From the NCBI RefSeq assembly GCF_036170895.1, contig NZ_CP108036.1, positions 6,917,501 through 6,981,500 on the forward strand: DNA of 64,000 nt, in the 5' to 3' direction. The stretch comes from Streptomyces erythrochromogenes. Its GTDB lineage: Bacteria; Actinomycetota; Actinomycetes; Streptomycetales; Streptomycetaceae. Each line of letters opens with the position of its first letter. Position 1 is the stretch's first letter. Both the position numbers and the translations under genes were made by a program. Below the pieces are notes generated by a model. That model ran no database searches. It was not told the DNA's origin and saw only the letters and a program-made list of their open reading frames with translations. Below are positions 7,954 to 57,663 of this stretch, piece by piece.

Positions 7954-7955
7954 CG

Positions 7956-7973
7956 CCCGCGGAAATCCGCGGG
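7956..7973 (+). terminator. short hairpin after FAD monooxygenase
   Basis: CCCGCGG / CCGCGGG form a 7-bp stem with an AAAT loop, starting 2 nt after the monooxygenase stop codon. It is a small candidate terminator. Confidence 0.4.
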
Positions 7974-7974
7974 A

Positions 7975-8140
7975 CGGCGCCCTTTGCTGACCGGTGTCGT
8001 GCGGGTAGAGCACGACGGTCCGGCGGTAGGAGCCCTCGTCGTAGGACTCCGCGGTGACCTTCCCGCCGGCGCCCTTACGGAAGGCGGCAATCCAGTTCTC
8101 GGCGGTCCTCTCGGTCGTGGCTGCACCTGGGGCTCGGTCC
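7975..8140 (-). pseudogene. relic of a second copy of the adjacent lipoprotein gene
   Basis: Read on the minus strand, about 50 codons (ENWIAAFRKGAGGKVTAE, then DEGSYRRTVVLYPHDT) align with residues in the second half of the intact lipoprotein encoded at 8318-8851 (QNWVQSFGKGAGGKVTAE, then DEGSVRQTVVVYFHDT). Similarity stops just after HDT, near 7975, and fades before about 8140. The relic has no start codon, signal peptide or C-terminus. The remaining sequence up to 8255 shows nothing recognisable. It reads as a decayed tandem duplicate. Confidence 0.75.
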
Positions 8141-8258
8141 TGAGCTGCCGGAGAACGAGCGACGTCGGCCTCACGGGGACCGTGGCCAGGGCGGCGATCT
8201 CTACAGGAACAGGATGCCTCCAGGTGAGTGTGGTGCGAGTGGTCGATGCAGTGCGAAG

Positions 8259-8293
8259 GGCGCCGTCCTGGGGGTGACCCACGGGACGGCGCC
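8259..8293 (-). terminator. hairpin terminator downstream of lipoprotein gene
   Basis: GGCGCCGTCC at 8259-8268 pairs with 8284-8293 across a 15-nt loop that itself contains TGGG/CCCA. It lies 25 bp past the lipoprotein stop codon and probably ends the transcript of the 12900-8318 gene pair. Confidence 0.6.
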
Positions 8294-8317
8294 CCTTGCG
8301 AAGCGACTTCGGTCAGG

Positions 8318-8851
8318 TCAGCGCGGCGTCTTCGAGCCAAGGGCTCCGGGTGTCTTCGGGAGCCAGTCGAGGGAGCCCGCTGCCTCCTTCGGATCCGGTT
8401 CGCGCATGTGCACGCGCCAGCCGTCCTCGCCGGTCCTGCCCGTGAGCTGGACCAGGAACGCCTTGGTCTGGGCCGTGTCGTGGAAGTACACCACGACGGT
8501 CTGGCGCACCGACCCCTCGTCGTAGAACTCGGCGGTCACCTTGCCGCCGGCCCCCTTGCCGAAGGACTGGACCCAGTTCTGTGCGGTCTTGCGGGTCTCG
8601 TCCTTCGCCTCATCGCCGTAGGCGGCGAGCGCTTCCAGCTCGCCGGCCTTCCCGTCGGCGATCCGCCAGATCAGCTTCTGGGTGATCTGCAGGGAATCGG
8701 AGGTGGGATAGCCGACCACGCCCAGCGGTTCGTGGTTGCCGTAGTCGGTCGCGTACTGCAGCCGGTCCTCGTCGGGGGAGGCACACCCCGTGAGACCGCC
8801 CCACGCCAGAACGGCCACCAGGGCTGCGCGCACCGCCGGAGCAGACCTCAC
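8318..8851 (-). CDS. small secreted lipoprotein, translationally coupled to the DNRLRE/amidase gene
   Basis: The 177-residue protein starts at the GTG at 8851, which overlaps the upstream stop codon (GTGA), so translational coupling is likely. The N-terminus has Arg-containing residues, a hydrophobic run and lipobox LTGC, giving Cys as the anchored residue at about position 23. The mature part is hydrophilic, with no domain I recognise. Marked features are GNHEPLGVVGYPTSD, RKTAQNWVQSFGKGAGGKVTAEFYDEG and a final SLDWLPKTPGALGSKTPR. A decayed copy of the same family lies immediately downstream. It may assist or neutralise the large exported protein encoded upstream; that role is inferred from gene order only. 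Confidence 0.82.
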   Translation of the reverse strand: MRSAPAVRAALVAVLAWGGLTGCASPDEDRLQYATDYGNHEPLGVVGYPTSDSLQITQKLIWRIADGKAGELEALAAYGDEAKDETRKTAQNWVQSFGKGAGGKVTAEFYDEGSVRQTVVVYFHDTAQTKAFLVQLTGRTGEDGWRVHMREPDPKEAAGSLDWLPKTPGALGSKTPR

Positions 8852-11800
8852 CTGGTCCCTCTCGGGCGGATCGCGACGATTGAGGCGATCGGCTTGGCAG
8901 CGCCCTTGTGGCGGGCGATGGCGTCGTCCAGGGTGGTCCGGTCGGGTCCACCGTGCTGTGCCATGTGGATGCGCCCCCCATAGTTGGCGGTGACGACGGC
9001 GGCGTGGTCGTAGACGGGGTCGCCCCGGTACTGGAAGAAGAGTATGTCGCCCTTGCGGATGTCGTAGACGTTGTTGATGTAGTAGCCGCCACGGTATCCA
9101 ACCAGATGACGCTCCAGGTTGTTGGCCCCCGCCCATGTCCAGCTGGCCTTCACCGGCCAGCTGGACCAGCCAGAGTTCTTGAACCAGGCGCTGTTGCTCC
9201 TGTACCACCCGGACCGCATCTTCAGCCCGCCACCGTAGTAGAGGGCCTTGGAGACGAAGTTGGTGCAGTCGTAGTAGTAGTCCCTCTTGATGCCGACGTT
9301 GTTGTAGGCCCAGCTGCCGGTTCCCAGGCCGTTGACCCACGACGCCGGGGCGAAGGAGGCCGTGCGGACGCCGCCGGCGGGTGCTTCGCCGACGGGGAAA
9401 CCGTCCTCGCCGAGCGTGAGCGCCCCGGTGCCGTCGGCCGGCGGCTCTGCGGCGTCCGCGGATGTGGCGAGCACCTGGGTGGCCGCGGTCGCCGTCGCCG
9501 ACAGGGTCTGGCCCGCCTGAGCGTCGTCGGACTCGCTCTGGAGCTTGACGGTGTCACCGGACACGGAGAACAGGTACCGCTTGCTGTTCTGACTCTCGGA
9601 CACCTGGTCGACGCCATCGATCCGGACCGTCGTCGTTTCCGAGACGGTGGTGCGCAGCAGCAGGCGTCCGGACGCCGCGTCGGTACCCGTCACCGTCTCG
9701 GTGAGAGCCGTGGAGATCCCCGCGTAGGCCATGTTCCTGGTGGCCAAGGCCTCACGTGCGCTGACCAGGCTGGCCTCCTGCGTGCCCAGCAGATCACCGA
9801 AGACCGCTCCGTGCGGGGATTCGGCGGCTGCATCGGCGGCGGTCAGGCTCGCGCCGATGGTGATCTTGTTGCGTGCGTTGAGGTACGCCTGGACGTAGTC
9901 CTGGAAGCGCGTGGCTCCGCCGGCCACCGACGCACCGTGAACCAGTGCGGATCGTGAGACGGGGCCGCTGCCGACGGCGTTCTTCGCCGTCACCGCGACC
10001 CGGTAGGAGGTGGCGTTGTCCAGCCCGGAGAAGACGGCACGCGGTGCCGAGCCCTCCCACGTGCCGACCACGGTGCCGTCGCTCTTCTCGGCCTTGGCCA
10101 CGTAAGTGATGTCATGGGTCGCACCCCCGTCGAGGGGAGCGTTCCAGGTGGCGACCAGGCTGGTGTCACCCGGGGTGGACACCATGTCGCTGACGGCGCC
10201 CGGGGCGGTCGGCGGCAGGTACTCGACGGTCAGCTTGGGACGTTGGGCGGGGTCCGCCGCGGCACCCGAGCGGTAGGCCGCCGCGGCGGCCGTGCCGGAA
10301 ACGGTGAGGGCCGCACCCTCGTTGCCGCCGCGATCGGTCCAGGACTGCACCAGCGGGCCGAAGTCGATTTCGGCCAGAGCGGTATCGGCTATGTATGTGT
10401 CCTCGCCCGCGGCGGTGAGGAGGTCCTTGCCACTCTGCGCCGGGGTCCACGGCGTGGACAGTTCGTACACGGCCGGCTTCTGTGCCACGCACTGCGTGGT
10501 GCAGTCGGACCTGGTCAGCGACAGCTTGGCAGAGGTGACCCGCGCCCCCTTCGGCAGAGCCGAGAGATCTGCCTTCAAGTGGGTGGCCCACAGGTGGCCG
10601 TCGACCGTACCGATCCGCAGTTCGCCGGCCGGCGGTGTGGCACAGCCCGGTGTGTCGCAGTCGGTGGCGGTCGACACGCTCGTGACCGCCGTGTCGGTGA
10701 GGGCCAGGGTCTGCGTAGCGGGCATGGGGGGCAGCGGCTGGAGGCGGACCGTCAGGCTCTGCTCGGCCGACCAGGGGGAGCAGCCCACAGGGGTACAGGC
10801 GCGTACGGACCAGCGGTAGGTTGCACCGTCAGCCAGCTTTCCCTCCGGGATCTGGATTGCGGCGCGGCCACCGCTCACCTGTGAGACGGGAGGCAGGGTC
10901 AGGCCGGGTACCGGGTTGCCGGCTGCGTCCTTCACCGCGAATTCGGCGTTCACCCGGCCTTGGGAGGCCTCGGAGACGACCGCGGACAGGATGGGCGTCA
11001 GGGTCTGCTGCGCGCCCGCCTGGATGTCCTGCGGGGCGTCCGGCAGGGGGCTGACGGTGAACGTGGTCCAGTTGGACCACGGCGACCAGCTGTTGCTGTA
11101 GTGGGTGCCGTCGTAGGGCGAGGTGCGGAAGCGGTACATGCGGCCGTGCTGGAGCACGCCCGCCGGTACGACCACCGAGGCCGGGGTGCCCTGCGGGACG
11201 AACGGCGAGACCAGCGTGTTGCCGACCTGGGTGTTGGTGGCGGCGTCGAAGATCTGGAAGGTGCCGTTGACCGTGTCGCCGTTCTTGTCCGCGAAGGTGT
11301 CGCGCAGGGTCGGCGTCGTCGTCTCCACGCGCCAGGCGGGGGTCTTGTCCTGGACGAACGGAGGGCCGGCCTCCTGCTTGGTGCCGGTCTGCGGACGGTA
11401 GTTGTAGGTCACCGTCAGCTTGGGCGGGTTGGATGTGGCGTTCGCGGAGTTGACGCGCTTCCACTGCCCGACGACCGACTCCGAGCCGGCCCGCAGGCCC
11501 ATGCTGGACAGCGGGGCCTTCGCGGACGCCCACGTCTGCACGAGGGTGGTCACGTCGGCGTTGATCCAGCCGTCCGGTGCCGAGCCGCAGGAGGGGTTGC
11601 CGCGGGTCTCGGTGGAGGTGGCGTACTTGGTGCCCATGGCGGGCTGGTTCGTCCAGCGCGATGCGGTGCTCGGGGTGCCCGAGTCCCAGACCTCCCACGG
11701 CTGCGCGACGCAGTCGGTGTTGCCCGAGTGGAAGTTCCACAGCGACAGCTTGGCGTCGGAGACCAGCGCGTCCGCGATCGGCGCGGTGTTCCACGTGATG

Positions 11801-13547: not shown

Positions 13548-15890
13548 GTGACCAGCAAGACTCCCGCCACCGCCGTACGGGCCGGTGCGGCCACCGTGTA
13601 CGGCTACCCCCGGCAGGGGCAGAACCGGGAACTGAAGAAGGCCGTCGAGGGCTACTGGAAGGGCCGGGTCGGCGCCGACGCCCTCCGGGAGACGGCCCGC
13701 GACCTGCGCCGGGCCAACTGGGGGCAGCTGGCCGACGCCGGCATCACCGAGGTACCCACCGGCGACTTCTCGTACTACGACCACGTGCTGGACACCAGCG
13801 TCATGGTCGGCGCCGTCCCCGCACGCCACCGCGCCGCCGTCGAAGCGGACGCCCTGGACGGCTACTTCGCCATGGCGCGCGGCACCCAGGAGGTGGCACC
13901 GCTCGAAATGACCAAGTGGTTCGACACCAACTACCACTACCTGGTGCCGGAACTCGGCCCGGACACCGTCTTCACCGCCGACTCCTCCCGGCAGGTCGCG
14001 CAGTTCGAGGAGGCCCGCGCGCTCGGCCACACCGCCCGCCCGGTGCTGGTCGGGCCGGTGACGTACCTGCTGCTGGCCAAGCCCGCCCCCGGAGTGGCGG
14101 CCGGCTTCGACCCCCTCGCCCTCCTCGACCGCCTGCTCCCCGTGTACGCACGGGTCCTCGCCGACCTGCGCGCGGCCGGGGCGGAGTGGGTGCAGCTGGA
14201 CGAGCCCGCCCTGGTGCAGGACCGCACCCCGGCCGAGCTGAACGCCGTCGCCCGCGCGTACCGCGAGCTCGGCGCCGCGGCCGACCGGCCGAAGCTGCTC
14301 GTGGCCTCCTACTTCGACCGGCTCGGCGAGGCCCTGGCCGTGCTGGCCAAGGCCCCCGTGGACGGGCTCGCCCTGGACTTCACCGGCGCGGCCGCCGCGA
14401 ACCTCGACGACCTCGCCGCCGTCGGCGGCCTGCCCGGCAAGCGCCTGGTCGCCGGCGTCGTCAACGGCCGCAACATCTGGATCAACGACTTCGAGAAGTC
14501 CCTCGCCACGCTCGGCACCCTCCTCGGCCTGGCCGGCAGCGTCGACGTGGCCGCCTCCTGCTCGCTGCTCCACGTGCCGCTGGACGCCTCCGTCGAGCGG
14601 GACATCGACCCGCAGGTCAGGCGCTGGCTCGCCTTCGCCCGCCAGAAGACCGCCGAGATCGCCACGCTCGCCCGCGGCCTCGCCCGCGGCACGGACGCCA
14701 TCGCGGCCGAACTCGCCGCCAACCGCGCCGACCTGGCCTCCCGTGCCACCTCCTCCGTCACCCGCGACCCCGCCGTCCGCGCCCGGACCGCGGCCGTCAC
14801 CGACGCCGACGGCCGCCGCTCCCAGCCCTACGGGGAGCGGGCGACCGCCCAGCGCACCCGCCTCGGCCTGCCGCTGCTGCCCACGACGACCATCGGATCG
14901 TTCCCGCAGACCGCCGAACTGCGCACGGCCCGCGCCGACCTGCGGGCCGGGCGCACCGACACCGCCGGCTACGAGGACCGCATCAGGGCGGAGATCCGGG
15001 AGGTGCTGGCCTTCCAGGAGAAGGCCGGCGTCGACGTACTGGTGCACGGCGAGCCCGAACGGGGCGACATGGTCCAGTACTTCGCCGAGCAGCTCACCGG
15101 CTACCTCGCCACGCAGCACGGCTGGGTCCAGTCCTACGGCACCCGCTACGTCCGCCCGCCCGTCCTGGCCGGCGACATCTCCCGCCCCGACCCGATGACC
15201 GTGCGCTGGACCACGTACGCGCAGGCGCAGACGACGAAGCCGGTCAAGGGCATGCTCACCGGGCCGGTCACCATGCTCGCCTGGTCCTTCGTCCGCGACG
15301 ACCAGCCGCTCGCGGACACCGCCCGGCAGGTCGCACTGGCCCTGCGCGACGAGGTGAACGACCTGGAGGCGGCCGGGACCTCCGTCATCCAGGTGGACGA
15401 GCCCGCACTGCGGGAGACCCTCCCGTTGCGCGGCGCCGACCACGCGGCCTACCTCGCCTGGGCCACCGAGTCCTTCCGGCTCACCACCGCGGGCGTCCGG
15501 CCGGACACCCAGATCCACACGCACATGTGCTACGCGGAGTTCGGCGACATCGTCGAGGCGATCGGCGACCTCGACGCCGACGTCATCAGCCTGGAGGCGG
15601 CCCGGTCGCACATGCAGGTCGCCGACGAGCTGTCCGGCGCCGGCTATCCGCGCGACGTCGGCCCGGGCGTCTGGGACATCCACTCGCCGCGGATCCCGTC
15701 CGTCGACGAGGCCTCGGCGCTGCTGCGCAAGGGCCTGGGGGCCATCCCGGCCGAACGGCTGTGGGTCAACCCCGACTGCGGCCTGAAGACCCGGGCCTGG
15801 CCCGAGACCCGGGCCTCCCTGGAGAACCTGGTCGAGGCGGCCCGCCTGGTCCGCGCCGAGGTGGGCGCCGAGGAGTCCGGCGCCGTCTGA
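13548..15890 (+). CDS. metE: cobalamin-independent methionine synthase
   Basis: The 780-residue protein starts at GTG 13548 with GAAGGAGAG 4 nt upstream. It transfers the methyl group of 5-methyltetrahydropteroyltri-L-glutamate to homocysteine. The N-terminal half starts GYPRQGQNRELKKAVEGYWKG, the family signature. The C-terminal zinc site is complete: His659 and Cys661 in IHTHMCYAEF, Glu683 in DVISLEAARS and Cys744 in VNPDCGLKTR. TTTIGSFPQT opens the catalytic barrel. The B12 riboswitch upstream implies that the organism also has a B12-dependent MetH and represses this gene when cobalamin is present. Confidence 0.98.
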   Translation: MTSKTPATAVRAGAATVYGYPRQGQNRELKKAVEGYWKGRVGADALRETARDLRRANWGQLADAGITEVPTGDFSYYDHVLDTSVMVGAVPARHRAAVEADALDGYFAMARGTQEVAPLEMTKWFDTNYHYLVPELGPDTVFTADSSRQVAQFEEARALGHTARPVLVGPVTYLLLAKPAPGVAAGFDPLALLDRLLPVYARVLADLRAAGAEWVQLDEPALVQDRTPAELNAVARAYRELGAAADRPKLLVASYFDRLGEALAVLAKAPVDGLALDFTGAAAANLDDLAAVGGLPGKRLVAGVVNGRNIWINDFEKSLATLGTLLGLAGSVDVAASCSLLHVPLDASVERDIDPQVRRWLAFARQKTAEIATLARGLARGTDAIAAELAANRADLASRATSSVTRDPAVRARTAAVTDADGRRSQPYGERATAQRTRLGLPLLPTTTIGSFPQTAELRTARADLRAGRTDTAGYEDRIRAEIREVLAFQEKAGVDVLVHGEPERGDMVQYFAEQLTGYLATQHGWVQSYGTRYVRPPVLAGDISRPDPMTVRWTTYAQAQTTKPVKGMLTGPVTMLAWSFVRDDQPLADTARQVALALRDEVNDLEAAGTSVIQVDEPALRETLPLRGADHAAYLAWATESFRLTTAGVRPDTQIHTHMCYAEFGDIVEAIGDLDADVISLEAARSHMQVADELSGAGYPRDVGPGVWDIHSPRIPSVDEASALLRKGLGAIPAERLWVNPDCGLKTRAWPETRASLENLVEAARLVRAEVGAEESGAV

Positions 15891-47917: not shown

Positions 47918-48007
47918 CACCTTCCGGGCCGCGCGGCGTGAACCGGCGTGCGCGCGGGCGCTGTTGCGCGACGCGAAGTCGCTCTGGTGGCGCCGCCGGA
48001 TGATCCC

Positions 48008-48013
48008 TACCAT
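48008..48013 (+). promoter_or_regulatory. -10 box TACCAT of the three-gene operon
   Basis: TACCAT lies 30 bp before the ATG at 48044, with a GGGGGAGGGGG ribosome site between. Confidence 0.4.
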
Positions 48014-48043
48014 CGGAGCAGGGGCGGGGGAGGGGGTGCGTTC

Positions 48044-48988
48044 ATGGCAGCGCAGGTCGGGCGGCTGGAGCGCTTCGTGGCCTGGCTGCTGCGCAACGCC
48101 GACGTGGTGGTCGCCCTCTGCGTCGCGATGGCGGTCGGCTTCCTGGACATCTTCGGCGACGTCGTCAGCGACGACGTCTCCTCCGGCGCCACCCTCGTCG
48201 TCCTCGGCCTCCTCGCGACCGGCTCGATCGTGGAGCGGGTGCGCCGGCCGGCCAGCATCCACGAGGCGCTGAGCGGGACCCGCCAGGCCCTGGAGGACCT
48301 CGCCATGGTCCGCTCGCTCTCCGGCAACGAGGTCGGCGAAGCCCTGCGCAAGGCCAGGCAGCACACCAACCTCTGGTACTTCAAAGGCGGAACGGGCACC
48401 TACCTCAGGGCGGTCACCCTGCCGCTGTGCGTGGCCGCGGCCAAGGAACAGCGCTCCCAGCTCAACGTGAAGATCGACATCGTCAACCCGGCCGACGAGC
48501 GCGCCTGCGCCGCCTACGCCCGGTTCCGGCAGATGTTCGGCGGGCAGCGCCGGGGCGACGAGGTGTGGACCACCGATCGGGTCCGCCGGGAGTCGTACGC
48601 TACCGTCCTCGCCGCCTGCTGGTACCAGCGGCAGCTGACCACCCTCGAGATCAGCGTGCACCTCTCGTCCGCCGTGCCCACCCTGCGCTTCGACCTCTCC
48701 GAGACCTGCCTCGTCATCACCCAGGACGACCAGTCCCGGGTGAACCTGCTGGTGGAGCGGGGGCAACCGCTCTACGACTACTACGTCACCGAGTTGCACC
48801 AGAGCCGCGAGCAGGCCACCGTGCTCGATCTGCGGGTCGCGTCGCCCCTCGGCCAGGAGCCCACCGTCGACGAAGTGCGGACGCTCTTCGACGACCTGGG
48901 GCTCCCGCTGCCGCGCGTCTTCACCGACAGCGACATCGGCAAGATCATCGAGAAGGCCCTGCACGCGGAGGACCCCTACAGGAGGTGA
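48044..48988 (+). CDS. membrane-anchored protein with two N-terminal TM helices and cytosolic domain
   Basis: The 314-residue protein starts at ATG 48044 behind a strong purine tract. Two hydrophobic helices (ADVVVALCVAMAVGFLDIFG and SSGATLVVLGLLATGSIVE) are followed by a soluble domain of about 240 residues. Its WYFKGGTGTYLRAVTLPLCVAAAKEQRSQLNVKIDIVNPADERACAAYARFR stretch recalls phospholipase-D-like folds, but no HKD motif is present. I cannot name the family. The next two genes follow at 18 bp and with a 20-bp overlap, so all three form an operon. 2TM proteins beside soluble enzymes are common in bacterial conflict systems, a possible setting here. Confidence 0.82.
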   Translation: MAAQVGRLERFVAWLLRNADVVVALCVAMAVGFLDIFGDVVSDDVSSGATLVVLGLLATGSIVERVRRPASIHEALSGTRQALEDLAMVRSLSGNEVGEALRKARQHTNLWYFKGGTGTYLRAVTLPLCVAAAKEQRSQLNVKIDIVNPADERACAAYARFRQMFGGQRRGDEVWTTDRVRRESYATVLAACWYQRQLTTLEISVHLSSAVPTLRFDLSETCLVITQDDQSRVNLLVERGQPLYDYYVTELHQSREQATVLDLRVASPLGQEPTVDEVRTLFDDLGLPLPRVFTDSDIGKIIEKALHAEDPYRR

Positions 48989-49006: not shown

Positions 49007-49630
49007 ATGGACTACGAGCTCGAAAGGACCCTTGTCTCCCTGGAGGAGATCGCCTCCGGGGACCGTGAGCTGCGCGCGGTGCGCCATCCGCTCGGGTTCC
49101 TGTGCCTGCCGCTGCTGAGAGACGGCCTGCGCGGAATCTGCGTGCACCTCTTCGAGGCCGGCAACCGAGCCGAGCCGGACGCCTCCCCCCTGCACGCCCA
49201 CAGCTGGGAACTGCGCAGCCGGGTGCTGTACGGGCGGATCGCCAACCTCCCCGTACGCACCCGGGTGGTGCGGGACGGCGAGGAGGGCGCGACCCACCGG
49301 GTGTTCGAGGTGCACAGCCGCAGCGACGGCGTGGACGAGATCCGCCCCACGCCCCTGCTGGTACGCAGCGAGCCCGGTCCCGCCCACATCAGCTCCGGCG
49401 GGGAGACGTACACGCTGCCCGCGGGGGAGTTCCACGCCACCGCCCTGGAAGGCCCGGAACCGGCGGCCACCCTGGTCCACGGGCTGTCGGTCCCCGGCCG
49501 GCGCGACCTCTCGCTCGGACCGCTCGACGGCCGGCCGCGCCGCACGACCCGCCGGCTGTGCGACAAGGCGCAGACCGTGCGCAGCGTCCACACCGTCCTC
49601 AGGAGGATCGATGCCCAGCAACGGGCCTGA
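49007..49630 (+). CDS. unassigned cupin-like protein of the 2TM operon
   Basis: The 207-residue protein starts at ATG 49007. I do not recognise a named family. LGFLCLPLLRDGLRGICVHLFEAGNRAEPDASPLHAHSWELRSRVLYGRI has a cupin-like H-x-H pattern (PLHAHSWEL) and beta-strand periodicity. A second strand set, LVRSEPGPAHISSGGETYTLPAGEFHATALEG, could complete the barrel. This suggests a small metal-dependent or ligand-binding barrel, like cysteine-dioxygenase relatives. Its end overlaps the next gene by 20 bp, and translation of the two should be coupled. Confidence 0.78.
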   Translation: MDYELERTLVSLEEIASGDRELRAVRHPLGFLCLPLLRDGLRGICVHLFEAGNRAEPDASPLHAHSWELRSRVLYGRIANLPVRTRVVRDGEEGATHRVFEVHSRSDGVDEIRPTPLLVRSEPGPAHISSGGETYTLPAGEFHATALEGPEPAATLVHGLSVPGRRDLSLGPLDGRPRRTTRRLCDKAQTVRSVHTVLRRIDAQQRA

Positions 49631-50432
49631 TTTCGACCGCGAGCGGCGGATCGCCGTCGCCGCGGCGGAGGAGGCGGGCGGTCTGCTGCGCAGGCGCTTC
49701 GGGGCCGCGTACTGCCTGCGGACCAAGGACGAGTCGGGGGACGTCCAGGTCGACCTCGACCTCGCCGCCGAGGAACTCGTACTGGGACGGATCCAGCGGC
49801 ACTTCCCGGACGACCGGATCCTGTCCGAGGAGGCCGGCCTGCTGGACGCGGCGGGCGAGCGCACCTGGCTGGTCGACCCGCTGGACGGCAGCAACAACGT
49901 CGCGATCGGCCTGCCCGCCTACGCGGTCGGCATCGGGCTGTGCCTGGCCGGCGTCCCGGTGCTGGGCGTGGTGCACGAGCCGGTCACCGGACAGACCTGG
50001 CACGCGGTCAGAGGGCACGGGGCGCACGGCGGCGCCGGGGTGCTGACGGGGCCCGCGCCCGGGCCGCCGGGCCCCGGACCCGTCGTCGCCTGGACCCAGG
50101 GGTACGCCGTGCGGCGCGGTGACGCGACGGCGGTGGCCCTGCGCGGTGCGCTGGAGCTCCACTGCCGGCGGGTCCTCCAGCTGTGGGCGCCGCTGCTCGG
50201 CTGGAGCCTGCTGGCACGCGGCACCATCGACGCCTTCGTCGGCTACCGGGCCGAGGGCGTGGACCTGCCGACGGGGGCGCTGCTCGCCGCCGAGGCGGGG
50301 GTGGAGCTGCGCACGCTGTCCGGCGCGCCCTTCACCCCCGGATTCGCCGGGGACGACTCCGGGCGCAGCTTCGTCGCGGCGCGCGGCGAGACCCTGGCGC
50401 ACCTGCTGCGGGAGGTGGGCGCCGTCGCCTGA
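49611..50432 (+). CDS. inositol monophosphatase-family phosphatase
   Basis: The 273-residue protein starts at ATG 49611 with an AGGAGG site inside the previous gene. The family motifs are present: metal-site ILSEEAGLLDA at about 70, WLVDPLDGSNNVAIGLPAYAVGIGL (DPLDG) at about 85-110 and the C-terminal VDLPTGALLAAEAGVELRTLSG in place of the usual WDxAAG motif. The Trp-Asp pair of that last motif is changed to V-D-L, so metal binding may be altered. Relatives hydrolyse inositol phosphates, 3'-phosphoadenosine phosphates or sugar phosphates. With the 2TM and cupin-like genes it forms an operon of unknown purpose. Confidence 0.88.
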   Translation: MPSNGPDFDRERRIAVAAAEEAGGLLRRRFGAAYCLRTKDESGDVQVDLDLAAEELVLGRIQRHFPDDRILSEEAGLLDAAGERTWLVDPLDGSNNVAIGLPAYAVGIGLCLAGVPVLGVVHEPVTGQTWHAVRGHGAHGGAGVLTGPAPGPPGPGPVVAWTQGYAVRRGDATAVALRGALELHCRRVLQLWAPLLGWSLLARGTIDAFVGYRAEGVDLPTGALLAAEAGVELRTLSGAPFTPGFAGDDSGRSFVAARGETLAHLLREVGAVA

Positions 50433-50447: not shown

Positions 50448-51638
50448 TCAGGTGGTGGCGGCCAGGGCCAGCGTCGCCGCCAGGGTGCCGGCCACCGAGA
50501 GGACCAGCCCCGTACCGAGGAAGCGGCGCATCTCGATGCGGGTGCCGTGCCAGCGGCACCGCTCGAACCACAGCAGGGTGGCCAGCGAAGCCCACGGCGT
50601 GATGACCGGGCCGACGTTGACGCCGACGAGCTGTGCGAGCAGCTGGTGGTGGTTGGCCTCGGGGATGGCCGCCTCGCCCGCCAGGTAGGCCGGCAGGTTG
50701 TTGAGCACGTTGGAGAAGCCCGCACCGACCGCGGCCGACCTCAGCATCCCGACGAGGTCGTTGTCCGAACCCATCGCCGCGGCCAGGACGTCGTGCAGCC
50801 CGTGCGCGTTGACGGTCTCCACGACCAGGAACATGCCCGGCACCAGGACGAGCAGCCGCCACGGGACCAGGGACGGGCGCAGCGCCCCGCGGTCGCGGAC
50901 CGCGAAGGCCGCCACCACGACCAGCGCGGCCGCCATCGACGCCGACCACAGCGGCACGTCCGCGAGGAGCAGCGCCACGAGGAACCCGCCGCACGCGATC
51001 GCGCACACCCGGAACAGGACGCGGTCCTTGGGGCGCGGCGGAGCCGGGGGCGCGTAACTGACCGCGCCGCGCCGCCCCGGGCGCCAGTAGAAGCCCCACA
51101 GGCAGGCCATCGTCACGGCGATGGCGGCCAGCTGCGGCGCCCACATGGTGGCGGCCATCTCCGACGGGGCCAGCGCCACCCGGTCCGCGGCGAGCAGGTT
51201 CGTCAGGTTCGACACGGGGAGCAGCAGGCTCGCCGTGTTGGCCAGCCACACCGTGGTCATCGCCAGCGGGACGGCCGCGATGCCCACCCGGGTCGCCAGC
51301 GCCAGCATCACCGGGGTCAGCAGGACCGCCGTCGTGTCCAGGTTCAGGGTGATCGTCGTGACGGACGCGAACACGACGCAGAGGAGGAAGAGCAGGGCGT
51401 AGTTGCCGCGGCCCACCCGCGCCACCCAGGTGGCGACCACGTCGAAGACCTCCGCCTTGCCGGTCAGCTCGGCGAGGACGATGACCGTCGCCAGGAAGAC
51501 CACCAGCGGCCCGATGCGTTGCAGGACGTCCCCGGCGGGCCCGTGCGGCAGCAGACCGGTGGCGACGCAGAGCACACCGAGTGCGAGCAGCCCGCCGGCC
51601 AGCCAGTCCAGTGGATGCAGACGCCTGAGGAAAGACAC
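50448..51638 (-). CDS. SLC13/ArsB-type anion permease
   Basis: The 396-residue membrane protein starts at the GTG at 51638, which places LRRLHPLDWLAGGLLALGVLCVATGL as the first helix; longer in-frame extensions are Arg/Pro-rich and unlikely. GPLVVFLATVIVLAELTGKAEVFDVVA, VTTITLNLDTTAVLLTPVMLALATRVG and ANTASLLLPVSNLTNLLAAD match the first half of the ArsB/CitMHS fold. The related second-half motif NVLNNLPAYLAGEA is at about 305. These proteins export arsenite or move dicarboxylates and other anions. No ars regulator or reductase lies nearby, so the substrate is open. It converges on the IMPase-like gene. Confidence 0.92.
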   Translation of the reverse strand: MSFLRRLHPLDWLAGGLLALGVLCVATGLLPHGPAGDVLQRIGPLVVFLATVIVLAELTGKAEVFDVVATWVARVGRGNYALLFLLCVVFASVTTITLNLDTTAVLLTPVMLALATRVGIAAVPLAMTTVWLANTASLLLPVSNLTNLLAADRVALAPSEMAATMWAPQLAAIAVTMACLWGFYWRPGRRGAVSYAPPAPPRPKDRVLFRVCAIACGGFLVALLLADVPLWSASMAAALVVVAAFAVRDRGALRPSLVPWRLLVLVPGMFLVVETVNAHGLHDVLAAAMGSDNDLVGMLRSAAVGAGFSNVLNNLPAYLAGEAAIPEANHHQLLAQLVGVNVGPVITPWASLATLLWFERCRWHGTRIEMRRFLGTGLVLSVAGTLAATLALAATT

Positions 51639-51785
51639 GGCGAACAGAGTCGCACACGCACGCGCCCGGACGGCAGACGGGCCCGGCCGGAACCGGACAC
51701 CCCCCACGCCGGGCCCGGGTGAGCGGACCCTCACGCTCCGCGACCCGTCCTCGGCGGGAAGGGGTCGCGGCCGGAGCCCCCGCCC

Positions 51786-51791
51786 TACCAT
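51786..51791 (+). promoter_or_regulatory. -10 box TACCAT of a probable leaderless promoter for the TIR-NACHT gene
   Basis: TACCAT ends exactly 7 nt before the ATG at 51799, and the gap GGGATCC offers no ribosome site. The message probably starts at the initiating A. Confidence 0.5.
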
Positions 51792-51798
51792 GGGATCC

Positions 51799-54700
51799 AT
51801 GATGACGGACGGGCAAGTCGGGGCGCCGGCACGGGAGTTCGACTTCTTCATCAGCTACTCGCCGGCGGACGAGCAATGGGCCGCGTGGATCGCCTGGACC
51901 CTGGAGGAAGCCGGCTACCGCACGGTGGTGCAGGCCTGGGACTTCGTACCGGGGACCAACTTCATAGACTTCATGGACCGCGGAGTCAGCGAGTCCGTCG
52001 CCGTGATCGCTGTCCTGTCGCGCCACTACGAACGCTCCACCTACGGGCGCATGGAATGGCAGGCCGCGCTCCGGGCCTCCCCCGAGTCACCCGAACGACG
52101 CCTCCTGACCGTCCGGGTGGACGAGATGCCGATCGAGGGACTCCTCGCCACGATCACCTACGTCGACCTGGTGGGCGTCGCCGACACCGACACCGCCCGC
52201 TCCCTGCTGCTCACCCGGGTCGAGCAGGCCGTCGACGGGCACGCCCGCCCCGGCCGGCGGCCCGGCTACCCCGGCAGCGGATCGGGCACCGCGTCGGGCG
52301 GCGGCCCGGGCGGTGTCCGCCTCCCCGAGCAGGCCCACCGGGGCCGGCTCCGGCCGAGCGCGCTCGCCGGCCCCGGCTGGGCGGGCCGCCGCCGTCCGGC
52401 CCGGGCGCCCCTCTACCCGCAGGCCTCGCCGGCCGGCGCCGCCGGCAACGGCCAGGACGCCGTGACCGTCCTGCACCTGGCCGGTCCCGACTTCGGGCGG
52501 GGCCGCGAACCCGACTCGCTCAGCCGCCAGATCCGCGGCGACCTGATCATGCTCAGGGACGCGGGAGCCCCGTCCCCCGACCTGATGGTGGTCACCGGCG
52601 ACCTCACCGCCTCCGGCAGCCCCCGCGAGTGCGACCAGGCCCTCAGCTTCCTCACCACCCTGCGCGCCCAGCTCGACCTGTCGCCCCCGCGCGTGATGGT
52701 CGTACCGGGCGCACAGGACGTGAACCAGGCCGCCTCCCAGGCCTACTTCCACACCTGCGAGGCCGACGAGGTGGCACCGCAGCCGCCGTACTGGCCCAAG
52801 TGGCGCCACTACACACGCCTGTTCCGCGGCCTCTACCAGGGTCTGGACACCGTCTTCGACAGCGACCAGCCCTGGACCCTCTTCCCGGTGCCCGAACTGA
52901 GCACGGTCGTCGCCGGATTCAACTCCTCCATCGCCTACAGCCACCGCCAGGAGGAGCAGTACGGCTTCATCGGCCGCGACCAGGCCGCCTGGTTCGCCGA
53001 GGCCATGCGCCGCTACGAGGACGAGGGCTGGCTGCGCATCGGCGCGCTGCGCCACCCGCTCACCGACGGCCGCCGCCCCGGCGACGCCGTCGGCGGCCCC
53101 GGCGGACTCCGCGACGTCGACACCCTGGCCCGGCTCGCCGCGCCGCGGCTCCACCTGCTGCTGCACGGCCCGACCGGCGGACCGCGCACTCTGTCCGCCA
53201 CCCCCGGACACAGCCGGCTCACGGGACCCGCCGGCGGGCTGCCGCTCTTCGGCTCCGCGGCCCCCGCCCGCTTCCAGCTGCTCCAGGTCACCGCGGACGC
53301 CGTCACCCGGTGGGACGACCGGATCACGTCCGAGGCCGAGCGGTTCCCCGGCGAGTGGCGGCACACCCGCCGCGTCTTCCCCGTCCCCGAACTTCCCCCC
53401 GTGATCAACGTCGGGCACGCCCAGGGCAGGGCACCCCTCGACGACCCCGCCGCCGCGCTCGCCGAGCGGGTCAAGGAGATCTGCCGCGTGCGCAGGGCGG
53501 GCGTACGGCTGCGCGACGTCCCGCGCCGCGAACCGGGCGACATGGTCCAGATCATGGCCACCTGGCAGGAGCAGGAGGACGACGTCGTCCAGCAGCAGCG
53601 CATCGCCGTCCACCCCGGGACGCCCAGCGAGGAGGAGATCGACCGGTTCGTCGGCCAGGTGCACGCGACCGACTCCGGCTCCGAGGCCGTCCTCGTCCAC
53701 GGCGGCGACGCGCCGGCCGGCGGGCTGCGGCACCGGGCCGCCGGCCACGGCGTACGGGTCAGGGTGCGCAGCTTCATCGAGTTCCAGGGCCTGCTCGACC
53801 TGCGCGGCTACGTCGCCGCGCAGACGGCCCGGCTCGGCAGCAGCGAGCAGTACGCCCCCGGCCTGTACCTGCCCCAGCGCTACCGCGACGCCGACCGCCC
53901 CGACGGGCAGGAGCGCGACGGCCTCGTCGAGGAGCTCCTGGAGCTACTCGAATCCGACCACGGCCGCTTCGTCCTGCTCCTCGGCGACTTCGGACACGGC
54001 AAGACCTTCGCCCTGCGCGAGCTGGCCCGCCGCATCCCCGAACAGCTCCCGCACCTGACGCCGCTGCTGATCCCGCTCAACACCCTCGACCGGGCGCACA
54101 GCCTCGAAGGCCTCGTCGCCGCCCACCTCGCGAGCCACGAGGTCGACACCATCGACCTGCGGGCGCTGCGCTACATGCTGGCCCAGGGCCGCGTCGTCCT
54201 GCTCTTCGACGGCTTCGACGAACTGGTCCACCGGGTCAGCTACGACCGGGCCGCCGACCACCTCCAGGTGCTCCTCGACGCCGCCGTCGACAACGCCAAG
54301 ATCGTCGTCAGCAGCCGCACCCAGCACTTCAAGTCGCACGCCCAGGTCCTCACCGCGCTCGGCGAGCGGGTCGGACTGCTGCCGCAGCGCCGCGTCCTGT
54401 CCGTCGAGGGCTTCACCCCGGCGCAGATCCGCTCCTACCTCGTGCGCAGCTACGGCGACGAACGCGCCGCCGACCAGCGCTACCAGCTCCTGCGCAACAT
54501 CCCCGACCTCCTGATGCTCTGCCGCAACCCGCGGCTGCTCTCCTTCGTCGCGGACCTGAGCCAGGACCAGCTGCGCGCGGTCGCCGGCGCCGGCCGCGCG
54601 CTCAGCGCGGCCCGGCTGTACGAGGACGTGTTCAGCTCCTGGCTCGCCTACGAGGAGGCGCGCGGCCAGGGCGGGCCCGGCGCCCCGCCCGGACTCACCG

Positions 54701-57663
54701 TCGACGAGCTGTGGGCGGCCGTGACCGCGCTGGCCTGGCGGCTGTGGGAGAGCGGCCGCAGCGCCCTGCGCCTGGACGAGCTCACCGAGACCGTCGCCGC
54801 CACCCTCAGCGAGCTCACCGAGTCCCCGCTCACCCCGTCCGAACGCGCCCAGGCGGTCGGCGCGGGCAGCCTGCTGGTCCGCAGCTCCGACGGCGTCTTC
54901 CAGTTCATCCACGGCTCCGTCGTCGAATGGCTCGTGGCGCGCGAAGCCGCCCGCCAGCTCGACCGCGGCCGCCACACCCTGCTCGTCGCACGCCCGCTCA
55001 GCCAGCTCGCCGTCGAGTTCTTCTGCGACCTCGCCGACCACGAACGGTGCGCCCGGTGGGTGCGCGAGGTCCTCGACGCGCCCGGCCGCGGGACCAGCGA
55101 CGCCGCCCGCGCCAACGCCGTCCGGATCAGCGACCGGCTGCGGGTTCCGGCCGACGCCGACCTGAGGGGCGCCAGGCTGGCCGGCGAGGACCTCTCGCAC
55201 CGGGACTTCTGCGGCGTCGACCTCTCCGACGCCGATCTCACCGATACCCGGCTGATCGGAGCCAACCTCTCGGGAGCCCTGCTGCGGGGCACCCGGCTGA
55301 CCGGCGCCCGCCTCGACCGGGCCGACCTGAGCGGGGCCGACCTGACCGGCGCGAACCTCAGCCGGGCCCGCCTGACCCGGGCCGACCTGCGGGGTGCCGT
55401 GCTGACCGGCAGCCGCTGGCACCGGGCCGCGCTCATCGACGTCACCATGGACGACGCCGTGCGGGCCGCCCCCGAACTGGGAACCGCCGCGATCGCCCCC
55501 GGGATGCCGGTGGACGCCGGATTCCGGCCCTCGGCGGTCGGTGTCCCGTACGGCTTCGGCATGCGCACCAGCAGGCTGCCCGAACCCATCGCCTACAGCA
55601 GCGACGGCGAACTCCTCGCGGTCGGCAGCGAGGACGGCTCCATCCTCGTCTGCGGCGCCGACGACGGCCGGGCGGTGCGCACCCTCCAGGGACACGAAGG
55701 ACGCGTCTACGCGGTGAAGTTCCGGCCGGACGTGATCGCCACCGGCGGGTCCGACGGCACCGTACGCCTCTGGGACCCGGTGACCGGTGCCTGCCGCCAC
55801 ATCCTGGAGATCCACCCCGACGGCGTGTGGCCGGTCTCCTTCGACGAGGCCGGCACGCTCCTCGCCACCGGCGACAGCGAAGGCCTGGTCACGGTCTGGG
55901 ACGTGGCCACCGGCCGGCCCGTGCACCGGCTGCCCGGCCACACCGCGCCCGTCTACACCGCCGTCCACAGCCGCGACGGCCATCTGCTCACCGGCGACGC
56001 GGCCGCGACGGCACGGCTGTGGGACCTGAACACCGGTACGTGCGTCCGGGAGATCGACGGGCACCAAGGAGCCGTCTACCGCGCGCGGTTCAGCCCCGAC
56101 GGCACCCTCTTCGCCACCGCGGACCGGGGCACGGGCACAGGCGGCGGCACCGTGCGGATCTGGCGGGCGTCCGACGCCCGGCTGCTGCACGAGTTCACCG
56201 GACACACCGGCCGCGTGTACGTCCTCGACTTCCACCCGGGCGGCAACCTCCTCGCCAGCGGCTGCACCGACGGCCAGGTCCGGCTCTGGGACCCGGTCGT
56301 CGGCACCCCCGCCGGAGTCCTCGAACGGGGCACGGGCGCCGTCTACCAGGTGCTGTTCGGCGACGACGGCGACCTCCTCGCCGCCTGCGACAGCAACGGC
56401 GCCGTCCGGCTCTGGACGGTCGCCGGCCGCCCCCACGGCTACACGATCGCCCTCCACCCCCAGCAGCCCGCCGACCACCGCGGCACCGCCTGGGCGTGCG
56501 CCTTCCGCCCCGGCGACAGCCAGCTGCTCACCGTCGGCAACGACGGAGGCGCACAGATCTGGGACTCCGCCACCGGCCAGGGCAAGCGCATCCTGCGCGG
56601 GCACGGCCGCAGGATCAGCGGCGTCGCCTTCAGCGCGGACGGCTCCCAGTTGGCGACCGCCGGCAACGACGGCGTCGTACGGCTCTGGGACACGCGCACC
56701 GGGCGGCGTACGGAGGAGCTCCGCGGCCGCGGCGACCGGCTGGTCTCCGCGGCGTTCAGCCCCGTCGGCCCCGTCCTGGCCACGGCCAGCAACGACGGCG
56801 ACATGTACCTGTGGGACCCGGTGGGCGGCCACTACCTGCGCGAGCTCGACGCCGAGACCGAGCACGTGTGGGCGGAGGCCTTCAACGCCGACGGCACCCT
56901 GCTCGCCACCGCGAACGACGACGACTCGGTCCGCGTCTGGTTCCGCCCGACCGGTTCACCCGTCTCGAACCTGGCCGGGCACCGCGGCCGGGTCCGCTCC
57001 ATCGCCTTCCGCTCGGACGGCGACGTGCTGGCCACCGGCTGCGACGACAGCGTCGTACGGGTGTGGGAGGCACGCAGCGGCCGCCTGGTGGAGGAGCTCG
57101 GCAGCGGCGCCGGCCACGCGGACCGGGTGTACGGCGTCGCGTACGGCCAGGGCAGCGCGTGGCTGGCGAGCGCGAGCTGGGACGGCAGCGCCATCGTCTG
57201 GCGGGACGGGCGGGCGCGCCTGCGCCTGCGCGGTCGCGGCGGACGGCTGTGGGCCGTGGCCGCCCATCCGCGCCGGCCGCTGCTGGCCGCCGCCGGCGAC
57301 GACCGCGCGATCGCCCTCTGGAACGCCGACACGGGCGAGCGGATCACCGACCTCGCGGGCCACACCGGACGGGTGCTCTCCCTGGCCTTCTCCCCGGACG
57401 GCAGCCTCCTGGCGAGCGGCGCCGAGGACGGCACCGTACGGCTCTGGGGCACCCCGGCGGACGGGGAGCCGCCGTCGCTGCGCGCGACGCTGATGGGCAT
57501 GGCGGGCGGCTGGGCGGCGCTGACACCGGCCGGCGGCTACAAGTACGAGGGCGACGTGGCCGGAGAGTTCTGGCACGTGGTGGGCATGTCCCGGTTCACA
57601 CCGGGGGAGCTCGACGAGTACCTGCCGGGCATCCACCGGCTGCCGCTCGGCGAGGAACTCTGA
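51799..57663 (+). CDS. TIR - degenerate metallophosphoesterase - NACHT - pentapeptide - WD40 giant STAND sensor
   Basis: The 1954-residue protein starts at ATG 51799 (MMTDG). TIR domain at about 12-145 (FDFFISYSPADEQWAAWIAWTLEEAGY) with the NADase-type glutamate at Glu86 in YGRMEW. A calcineurin-like phosphoesterase fold covers about 220-500 (LHLAGPDFGRG, VVTGDLTASG, VVPGAQDVN), but metal ligands of the SDxH and GNHD motifs are lost. NACHT NTPase at about 715-1080 has Walker A GDFGHGKT (Lys735) and Walker B LLFDGFDEL (Asp804). Pentapeptide repeats lie at about 1120-1215 (ADLSGADLTGANL), and about 14-15 WD40 repeats run to about residue 1895. The expected behaviour is ligand-triggered oligomerisation and NAD+ breakdown, as in TIR-STAND antiphage proteins. 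The trigger is unknown. Confidence 0.95.
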   Translation: MMTDGQVGAPAREFDFFISYSPADEQWAAWIAWTLEEAGYRTVVQAWDFVPGTNFIDFMDRGVSESVAVIAVLSRHYERSTYGRMEWQAALRASPESPERRLLTVRVDEMPIEGLLATITYVDLVGVADTDTARSLLLTRVEQAVDGHARPGRRPGYPGSGSGTASGGGPGGVRLPEQAHRGRLRPSALAGPGWAGRRRPARAPLYPQASPAGAAGNGQDAVTVLHLAGPDFGRGREPDSLSRQIRGDLIMLRDAGAPSPDLMVVTGDLTASGSPRECDQALSFLTTLRAQLDLSPPRVMVVPGAQDVNQAASQAYFHTCEADEVAPQPPYWPKWRHYTRLFRGLYQGLDTVFDSDQPWTLFPVPELSTVVAGFNSSIAYSHRQEEQYGFIGRDQAAWFAEAMRRYEDEGWLRIGALRHPLTDGRRPGDAVGGPGGLRDVDTLARLAAPRLHLLLHGPTGGPRTLSATPGHSRLTGPAGGLPLFGSAAPARFQLLQVTADAVTRWDDRITSEAERFPGEWRHTRRVFPVPELPPVINVGHAQGRAPLDDPAAALAERVKEICRVRRAGVRLRDVPRREPGDMVQIMATWQEQEDDVVQQQRIAVHPGTPSEEEIDRFVGQVHATDSGSEAVLVHGGDAPAGGLRHRAAGHGVRVRVRSFIEFQGLLDLRGYVAAQTARLGSSEQYAPGLYLPQRYRDADRPDGQERDGLVEELLELLESDHGRFVLLLGDFGHGKTFALRELARRIPEQLPHLTPLLIPLNTLDRAHSLEGLVAAHLASHEVDTIDLRALRYMLAQGRVVLLFDGFDELVHRVSYDRAADHLQVLLDAAVDNAKIVVSSRTQHFKSHAQVLTALGERVGLLPQRRVLSVEGFTPAQIRSYLVRSYGDERAADQRYQLLRNIPDLLMLCRNPRLLSFVADLSQDQLRAVAGAGRALSAARLYEDVFSSWLAYEEARGQGGPGAPPGLTVDELWAAVTALAWRLWESGRSALRLDELTETVAATLSELTESPLTPSERAQAVGAGSLLVRSSDGVFQFIHGSVVEWLVAREAARQLDRGRHTLLVARPLSQLAVEFFCDLADHERCARWVREVLDAPGRGTSDAARANAVRISDRLRVPADADLRGARLAGEDLSHRDFCGVDLSDADLTDTRLIGANLSGALLRGTRLTGARLDRADLSGADLTGANLSRARLTRADLRGAVLTGSRWHRAALIDVTMDDAVRAAPELGTAAIAPGMPVDAGFRPSAVGVPYGFGMRTSRLPEPIAYSSDGELLAVGSEDGSILVCGADDGRAVRTLQGHEGRVYAVKFRPDVIATGGSDGTVRLWDPVTGACRHILEIHPDGVWPVSFDEAGTLLATGDSEGLVTVWDVATGRPVHRLPGHTAPVYTAVHSRDGHLLTGDAAATARLWDLNTGTCVREIDGHQGAVYRARFSPDGTLFATADRGTGTGGGTVRIWRASDARLLHEFTGHTGRVYVLDFHPGGNLLASGCTDGQVRLWDPVVGTPAGVLERGTGAVYQVLFGDDGDLLAACDSNGAVRLWTVAGRPHGYTIALHPQQPADHRGTAWACAFRPGDSQLLTVGNDGGAQIWDSATGQGKRILRGHGRRISGVAFSADGSQLATAGNDGVVRLWDTRTGRRTEELRGRGDRLVSAAFSPVGPVLATASNDGDMYLWDPVGGHYLRELDAETEHVWAEAFNADGTLLATANDDDSVRVWFRPTGSPVSNLAGHRGRVRSIAFRSDGDVLATGCDDSVVRVWEARSGRLVEELGSGAGHADRVYGVAYGQGSAWLASASWDGSAIVWRDGRARLRLRGRGGRLWAVAAHPRRPLLAAAGDDRAIALWNADTGERITDLAGHTGRVLSLAFSPDGSLLASGAEDGTVRLWGTPADGEPPSLRATLMGMAGGWAALTPAGGYKYEGDVAGEFWHVVGMSRFTPGELDEYLPGIHRLPLGEEL

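Follow-up and report, generated by a model that had tools for sequence, protein, structure and literature searches.

The window, that is, the whole stretch of 64,000 nucleotides of Streptomyces erythrochromogenes (contig NZ_CP108036.1, positions 6,917,501 to 6,981,500) that was analysed, encodes a large TIR-NACHT protein next to four partner genes. The features are as follows (coordinates within the window):

47948..48988, + strand: TM2, N-terminal helices, membrane-spanning by eye, followed by a phospholipase-D-fold domain
49007..49630, + strand: CUP, cupin-like protein with an invariant HxHSW motif and a later His
49611..50432, + strand: IMP, inositol-monophosphatase-family enzyme (PF00459, E 8e-34)
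50448..51851, - strand: ARS, ArsB/CitMHS-type transporter, the divergent partner
51799..57663, + strand: TIR-pseudophosphoesterase-iREase3-NACHT-pentapeptide-WD40 protein, 1954 aa
51844..52200, + strand: TIR_2 domain, residues 16-134 (TIR_2 profile, E 5e-33)
52054-52056, + strand: codon of the TIR catalytic Glu86 (kept in 78/78 aligned copies)
52456..53388, + strand: pseudo-phosphoesterase (calcineurin / class III phosphodiesterase fold), residues about 220-530
53455..53802, + strand: NA-iREase3 (PF22739), NACHT-associated inactive restriction endonuclease, residues 553-668
53965..54447, + strand: NACHT, residues 723-883, Walker A GDFGHGKT, Walker B LLFDGFDE
55147..55473, + strand: pentapeptide repeats, residues about 1117-1225
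55546..57468, + strand: WD40 beta-propeller region, residues about 1250-1890 (start approximate)

The 1954-aa protein, which could also start at an in-frame ATG at 51790, appears to have the layout of an animal or plant immune receptor (NLR-like STAND protein). A sequence-only reading of this DNA had described five modules. All five were found, and a sixth had been missed, the NA-iREase3 domain, which scores 102.6 bits and lies above the Pfam gathering cutoff of 27. The assignment as a TIR-STAND protein was borne out, as the TIR Glu, the NACHT Walker motifs, and the C-terminal repeats are all present. The NACHT domain matches PF05729 (E 1.4e-11), and its Walker motifs had rightly been called intact, with Lys735 (A) and Asp804 (B) kept in 71/71 copies (all conserved-residue counts include only copies that are long enough and free of unknown residues). 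The pentapeptide repeats were seen as described, and the expected 14-15 WD40 repeats correspond to 15 Pfam WD40 stretches (each E up to 1; family E 1e-106). As Glu86 and the Walker residues are kept in every copy counted, the TIR domain is the likely executor. From the NACHT start to the stop codon, 59 of the 62 frames listed measure 1218-1320 aa across genera, and the three exceptions stem from the broken loci L204 and L247. This constant length fits a fixed target for the WD40 part.

Further WD40-encoding sequences lie on the same contig. Just before the window start (contig positions 6915306-6917141, - strand; L002/L003), a 1354-aa open frame carries WD40 repeats that are 36-40% identical to those of the receptor. 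Other WD40-encoding matches (66862-68679, - strand, and 8429852-8431669, + strand; L004-L007) form two pairs, equal in score and mirrored in position, and apparently lie near both ends of the contig, as long terminal inverted repeats would give.

Among the partner genes, IMP has its acidic site residues E73, E74, D89, D92, and D218 kept in 78/78 copies. Five homologues of ARS align only from residue 54-75 onward, and the true start of this gene is probably near 51640. The cupin fold call for CUP is weak (Cupin_2 in 4/33 members, best E 0.023). TM2 matches the phospholipase D (PLD) fold as a single half-domain, and the HKD motif HxK(x)4D is absent from all copies (0/80). PLD-fold proteins without a lipase role, such as TrmB and FAM83, are known; TM2 differs from these by its N-terminal membrane-like helices. 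A PDB sequence search returned no match to CUP or TM2, and these two proteins have no fitting family in Pfam, NCBIfam, or PADLOC. None of the four partner genes has a PADLOC match.

The middle of the receptor had been read as a dead calcineurin-like phosphoesterase. The fold is supported: our model matches SMPDL3A/B among solved structures, and in comparison with the class III phosphodiesterases (Rv0805/GpdQ), the calcineurin-type fold is present and the binuclear metal ligands are absent. The best family match is NF053862 (DS-9A; E 2e-14, 53 bits vs a cutoff of 420), and the match of the receptor to the DS-8 profile NF053861 is weak and below cutoff (E 0.0007). For the metal site, we aligned the domain to Rv0805, a class III cyclic nucleotide phosphodiesterase with about 20% identity, whose ligands we take to be Asp21, His23, Asp63, Asn97, His169, His207, and His209. 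In the window, six of the seven positions are changed, and only Asp268, the Asp63 equivalent, is kept. The site is dead in all 66 cassette copies examined, the window included; a separate alignment of the domain omitted the fragmented frames L053 and L062 and found no match in L072 and L073. At the Asp21 position, all 66 copies have Gly; Asn97 is Asn in 10/66 and another residue in 56/66; His169 is replaced by Arg (58), Ala (4), Gly (3), or Glu (1), and His207 by Pro (58), Ala (3), Thr (3), or Arg (2). His23 and His209 are variable. It is very improbable that the domain has kept enzymatic activity through a modified metal site: the Asp63 position is Asp in 63/66 copies (Asn in 3) and both Asp307 and His419 are found in 66/66, which would suit such an enzyme, and against it no copy retains the counterparts of Asp21, His169, and His207, and most lack that of Asn97.

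We compared selection between domains in the six pairs closest to the window (L198, L199, L201, L202, L212, and L263; 0.89-0.96 identity). Nei-Gojobori dN/dS was 0.07-0.20 for the phosphoesterase, 0.05-0.10 for NACHT, 0.13-0.40 for iREase3, 0.20-0.28 for WD40, and 0.29-0.98 for the linker before the phosphoesterase; as the method is biased in GC-rich genomes, these values can be used only relative to each other. The phosphoesterase is under purifying selection in these pairs. In wider pairs (about 0.65-0.79 identity), dN/dS is higher for nearly every domain, and the values for phosphoesterase and WD40 overlap, their order differing pair by pair. Eleven phosphoesterase residues are kept in 66/66 copies (G229, F232, G233, R234, G267, L269, T270, P303, G304, D307, and H419). 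Among 80 loci found with TM2 (see below), the phosphoesterase is seen in 73, the others being cut by contig ends or having the gene elsewhere, and no locus with the region in view is without the domain.

Hence, the dead phosphoesterase is probably not neutral debris. We consider it unlikely that the domain is a relic serving only as a spacer. The loss of six of seven ligands, the different motifs lost in different relatives, and the wider pairs, in which it evolves about as fast as WD40, would all be expected of a spacer. This is opposed by its dN/dS, which in the six closest pairs is lower than that of the linker and of WD40, by the eleven invariant residues, and by the domain never missing where its region is in view.

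A class-wide profile search matched 33 of 345 genomes, and 40 loci were fetched. With domain profiles that omit the broken frames L042, L067, and L071, TIR-phosphoesterase-iREase3-NACHT proteins were found in several families, and family f18 also has TIR-iREase3-NACHT forms without a phosphoesterase. The relatives with an intact-looking phosphoesterase belong to f18 as well. Four of them (L122, L123, L127, and L133) combine a TIR domain with a near-complete site, with the motifs SDTQFG, GDLA/T, PGNHD, HHN, and HGHT/AH and with the first His replaced by Gln. The same replacement is known from ADPRibase-Mn-like enzymes. L128 has a site of the same kind and is the only one of the five without TIR in its frame. 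The five loci stem from three genomes (three from G408, one each from G630 and G606), and the L133 frame is broken after the phosphoesterase. Intermediate sites are seen in L125, L126, and L129-L131, and different relatives have lost different motifs. Apart from the window's own match, a phylum-wide search of 296 genomes yielded 17 weak ones (E 4e-12 to 3e-9) that cover only the first ~100 model positions, and we take these as likely generic phosphoesterases.

In a NACHT tree of 56 rows, which took the window and 12 Streptomyces loci rather than all 33, the window falls in a 24-row clade (support 100/100) whose rows were all scored dead. A different clade holds the intact-looking rows, with the partial forms L129-L131 nested inside, and given the starred branches, the intact label must have changed at least twice; 'intact' and 'partial' were assigned by eye from the motifs. 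This placement indicates that catalytic loss is derived. The idea that a clean fossil was left when TIR replaced the phosphoesterase was rejected, as TIR coexists with an intact-looking site in L122, L123, L127, and L133. Decay would thus have come with TIR already present.

The sequence-only reading had proposed the phosphoesterase as a sensing part, and this fared less well: the four loci above, L128, and DS-8, as described in the part of its report available to us (PMC13092281), fit a former effector better. Since the phosphoesterase that DS-8 joins to NACHT must be active for defence, according to the same partial text, the window domain is read as a demoted effector. Its description as a former effector that is now a scaffold draws on these relatives and, by analogy, on the accessible parts of the DS-8 and conflict-system papers. 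Ligand binding by the dead pocket is possible.

Two further relatives were noted by eye. Residues about 1-170 of the 2043-aa open frame of L119 appear TIR-like of another lineage, without a match to the TIR profile, as if the TIR had been exchanged. In L072 (positions 7443-10382, genome G301), a 980-aa frame has intact phosphoesterase motifs followed by an apparent P-loop NTPase, a DS-8-like layout in Streptomyces.

The partner genes are inherited together with the receptor. The phosphoesterase-iREase3 piece was matched in 36/392 Streptomyces genomes; two of these (G301 and G347) were rejected as carriers because they hold other phosphoesterases, which leaves 34/392 with the window's genome included. 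In stretches of 14-20 kb from the 33 other carriers, the transporter was present in 33, IMP in 32, CUP in 31, and TM2 in 31. Among 79 non-carrier Streptomyces, TM2 left traces in two, one of them a scrap of 47 residues (G039), and the transporter was found in five (E up to 1e-60). Fisher tests, uncorrected for relatedness, gave 6e-23 for TM2 with both traces counted and 2e-23 for the transporter. The second trace, in G049 (L284:7293-10993), is a diverged TM2-CUP pair of 38% identity with no other set member within 20 kb. It lies 1.7 kb from a transposase-like frame and may be a decayed or separate cassette form.

A search of named genomes with TM2 alone gave 218 relatives, of which the best 80 were examined. 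These come from Streptomyces, Kitasatospora, Streptacidiphilus, Streptosporangium, Microbispora, Nonomuraea, Actinomadura, and Micromonospora and include one Streptosporangiaceae MAG; they overlap the Streptomyces carrier set, so the two samples are not independent (L198 and G042 are one 77820-base contig). Among these best 80 loci, CUP and IMP were found in 80, the transporter in 78, TIR in 77, and the phosphoesterase in 73, and the whole TIR-phosphoesterase-iREase3-NACHT set was in view in 70. Seven loci with TIR have an incomplete set and are truncated where the contig or the fetched stretch ends. For the three that show no TIR (L245, L267, and L269), the transporter and the TIR-phosphoesterase-iREase3-NACHT gene lie elsewhere in the genome: for L245 on a different short contig, at its end; for L267 on the same contig, about 12 kb farther along; and for L269 on a different draft contig. 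Where the set lies on the other short contig, both transporter halves are cut, which probably reflects a contig break. As all three exceptions carry the set elsewhere, at least the family's TIR is present in all genomes of the best 80 TM2 relatives.

At class level, the transporter is near the gene in 11/11 members of the 24-row clade (L104-L114). No partner gene was seen in the 29 loci of other clades (L115-L143), several of which are cut by contig ends so that the view is limited. In 80 chosen genomes, TM2 was found in 12/15 with a gene of this clade (11 assigned by the tree; G407, G474, G542, and G638 by match score), in 1/18 with only other clades (G606), and in 0/47 others. The three misses (G669, G700, and G506) have the transporter and CUP near TIR-NACHT, with no TM2 and with no IMP in the fetched stretch. 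Because of these exceptions, only the transporter and CUP come close to being universal among the partners.

Several loci deviate in other ways. G606 holds an IMP-CUP-TM2 set (L298:9362-12040) for which the 20 kb fetched contain neither a transporter nor TIR-NACHT, and it also holds L128, the TIR-less intact-looking phosphoesterase-NACHT protein. In a Microbispora locus (L264:12565-17116), an insert lies between IMP and the transporter, and its frames, judged by eye, resemble a thiolase, an AMP-ligase, and a vitamin transporter of the ECF/BioY type; the cassette halves are still near each other. In L289-L292 (G542, G668, G407, and G474, one genus), each TM2 match crosses one TGA. Near the five-gene run of L114 (positions 13613-14008), a second TIR-like frame has Gln at the position of the catalytic Glu.

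The receptor could be a stand-alone, single-gene defence protein whose neighbours are an old conserved stretch of chromosome without shared function. The bNACHT and Avs proteins known so far work without partners, a few genomes hold an incomplete set, and the correlation of gene distances (Spearman 0.83-0.94 over 62 loci) is also expected from shared descent. Carriage in Streptomyces is patchy and yet linked, with TM2 in 31/33 carriers vs 2/79 non-carriers and the transporter in 33/33 vs 5/79. Moreover, gene order differs: L112 and L114 (f18) have a one-direction run TM2-CUP-IMP-TIR-NACHT-transporter, and the transporter is divergent in Streptomyces and f17. As the order varies between families, the linkage is more than a frozen order, and the cassette halves stay within about 12 kb even with other genes between. 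We therefore regard a lone receptor among bystander genes as improbable, and we prefer the reading that the receptor works within a cassette of five genes inherited together, the others being TM2, as a membrane-anchored pseudo-phospholipase D, CUP, IMP, and ARS.

Defence genes are often mobile. Two scans of IMG/VR viral contigs, each starting from two short peptide patterns, found no cassette relative, and the only match in a plasmid collection is an 11.85-Mb Nonomuraea record. On these scans and this one record, cargo of a mobile element was rejected. Among the results that would speak against it, the sequence-only reading had named homologues consistently placed in non-defence contexts together with unaffected NAD+ on activation. 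The first half was found: the homologues of this clade lie consistently in one setting, which bears little resemblance to a defence island.

This setting bears on a second alternative, a metabolic or envelope stress switch, in which the STAND receptor guards a transporter/phosphatase pathway whose failure leads to NAD+ loss and a stop of growth. The identity of the partners (a transporter, a membrane protein, a cupin-like protein, and an enzyme of a phosphatase family whose acidic residues are kept in 78/78 copies), the constant sensor length, and the searches above, which found no phage or true plasmid carriage, are in keeping with such a switch. The nearest function-tested proteins, DS-8 (PMC13092281) and bNACHT25 (PMC12169576), are defence proteins according to the parts of these reports available to us, and patchy carriage is more typical of defence. 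By analogy with these bNACHT and DS-8 proteins, an antiphage function is plausible; the missing IMG/VR relatives and PADLOC partner matches count against a defence cassette, and the fixed chromosomal setting fits the stress switch nearly as well. On balance, we consider a stress switch rather unlikely.

For the preferred reading, we propose the following mechanism. The WD40 propellers, together with the pentapeptide and iREase3 parts, would register the trigger, upon which NACHT is predicted to oligomerise. This assembly would allow the TIR domain, as the executing NADase, to consume NAD+, possibly with an antiphage or abortive outcome. The phosphoesterase would once have been an effector like that of DS-8 and would have become inactive after TIR had joined it; its fold may persist because it relays between TIR and NACHT, either structurally or by binding a ligand. 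The guarded state, which may be a small phosphorylated metabolite or a membrane condition, is most likely set or reported by the partners. With moderate confidence, we suggest that the target of the WD40 part is the state of this partner module, in a guard arrangement. Taken together, we assign a probability of roughly 0.55 to the joint reading of a TIR-NADase STAND receptor with a demoted phosphoesterase relay, in a five-gene cassette whose state the receptor guards. It counts against this reading that the intact-looking sites come from three genomes only and that the L133 frame is broken.

We suggest, tentatively and at a little under even odds, that the locus represents an undescribed five-gene actinomycete alarm of the NLR type, in which a receptor with two dead nuclease-type domains guards a small-molecule or membrane module and the phosphoesterase is a fossil effector turned scaffold, of which relatives show intermediate states. 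The relatives offer a natural series for executioner swapping in immune receptors: an intact-looking phosphoesterase without TIR, the two together, and TIR with a phosphoesterase that is dead and yet preserved. Some bacterial NLR-like receptors may also belong to fixed cassettes with transport and phosphatase genes instead of being lone proteins, and the cassette setting suggests that, in place of a phage protein, a metabolite or a membrane state of the host may act as trigger.

We compared the locus with known systems as far as their reports were available to us in part. The titles and abstract beginnings covered, with most subscription journals outside this scope, held no description of the cassette. 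DS-8 is a single-protein defence system of a metallophosphatase and NACHT, and its catalytic residues are required for defence (PMC13092281). The window protein likewise joins an SMPDL3A-related phosphoesterase to NACHT; unlike DS-8, it has lost the metallophosphatase residues, and it has a front TIR, the iREase3, pentapeptide, and WD40 parts, and a gene cassette. DS-9 pairs with a HAD phosphatase, and its catalytic residues are also required, according to the accessible text (PMC13092281); the window phosphoesterase scores far below the cutoff of the DS-9A family (NF053862). With bNACHT proteins, as described in the available part of PMC12169576, and with Avs, the window protein shares an N-terminal effector, a central NACHT, and a C-terminal sensor. 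It differs from both by the dead phosphoesterase and the inactive REase added between effector and NACHT and by its conserved partner genes, and its defence role is predicted. In STAND conflict systems, TIR and calcineurin-type domains are alternative effectors (PMC8195603, PMC7159879), and the accessible parts of these two papers do not name this domain order or these partners. The window protein, unlike those systems, holds a TIR and a calcineurin domain together, one of them dead.
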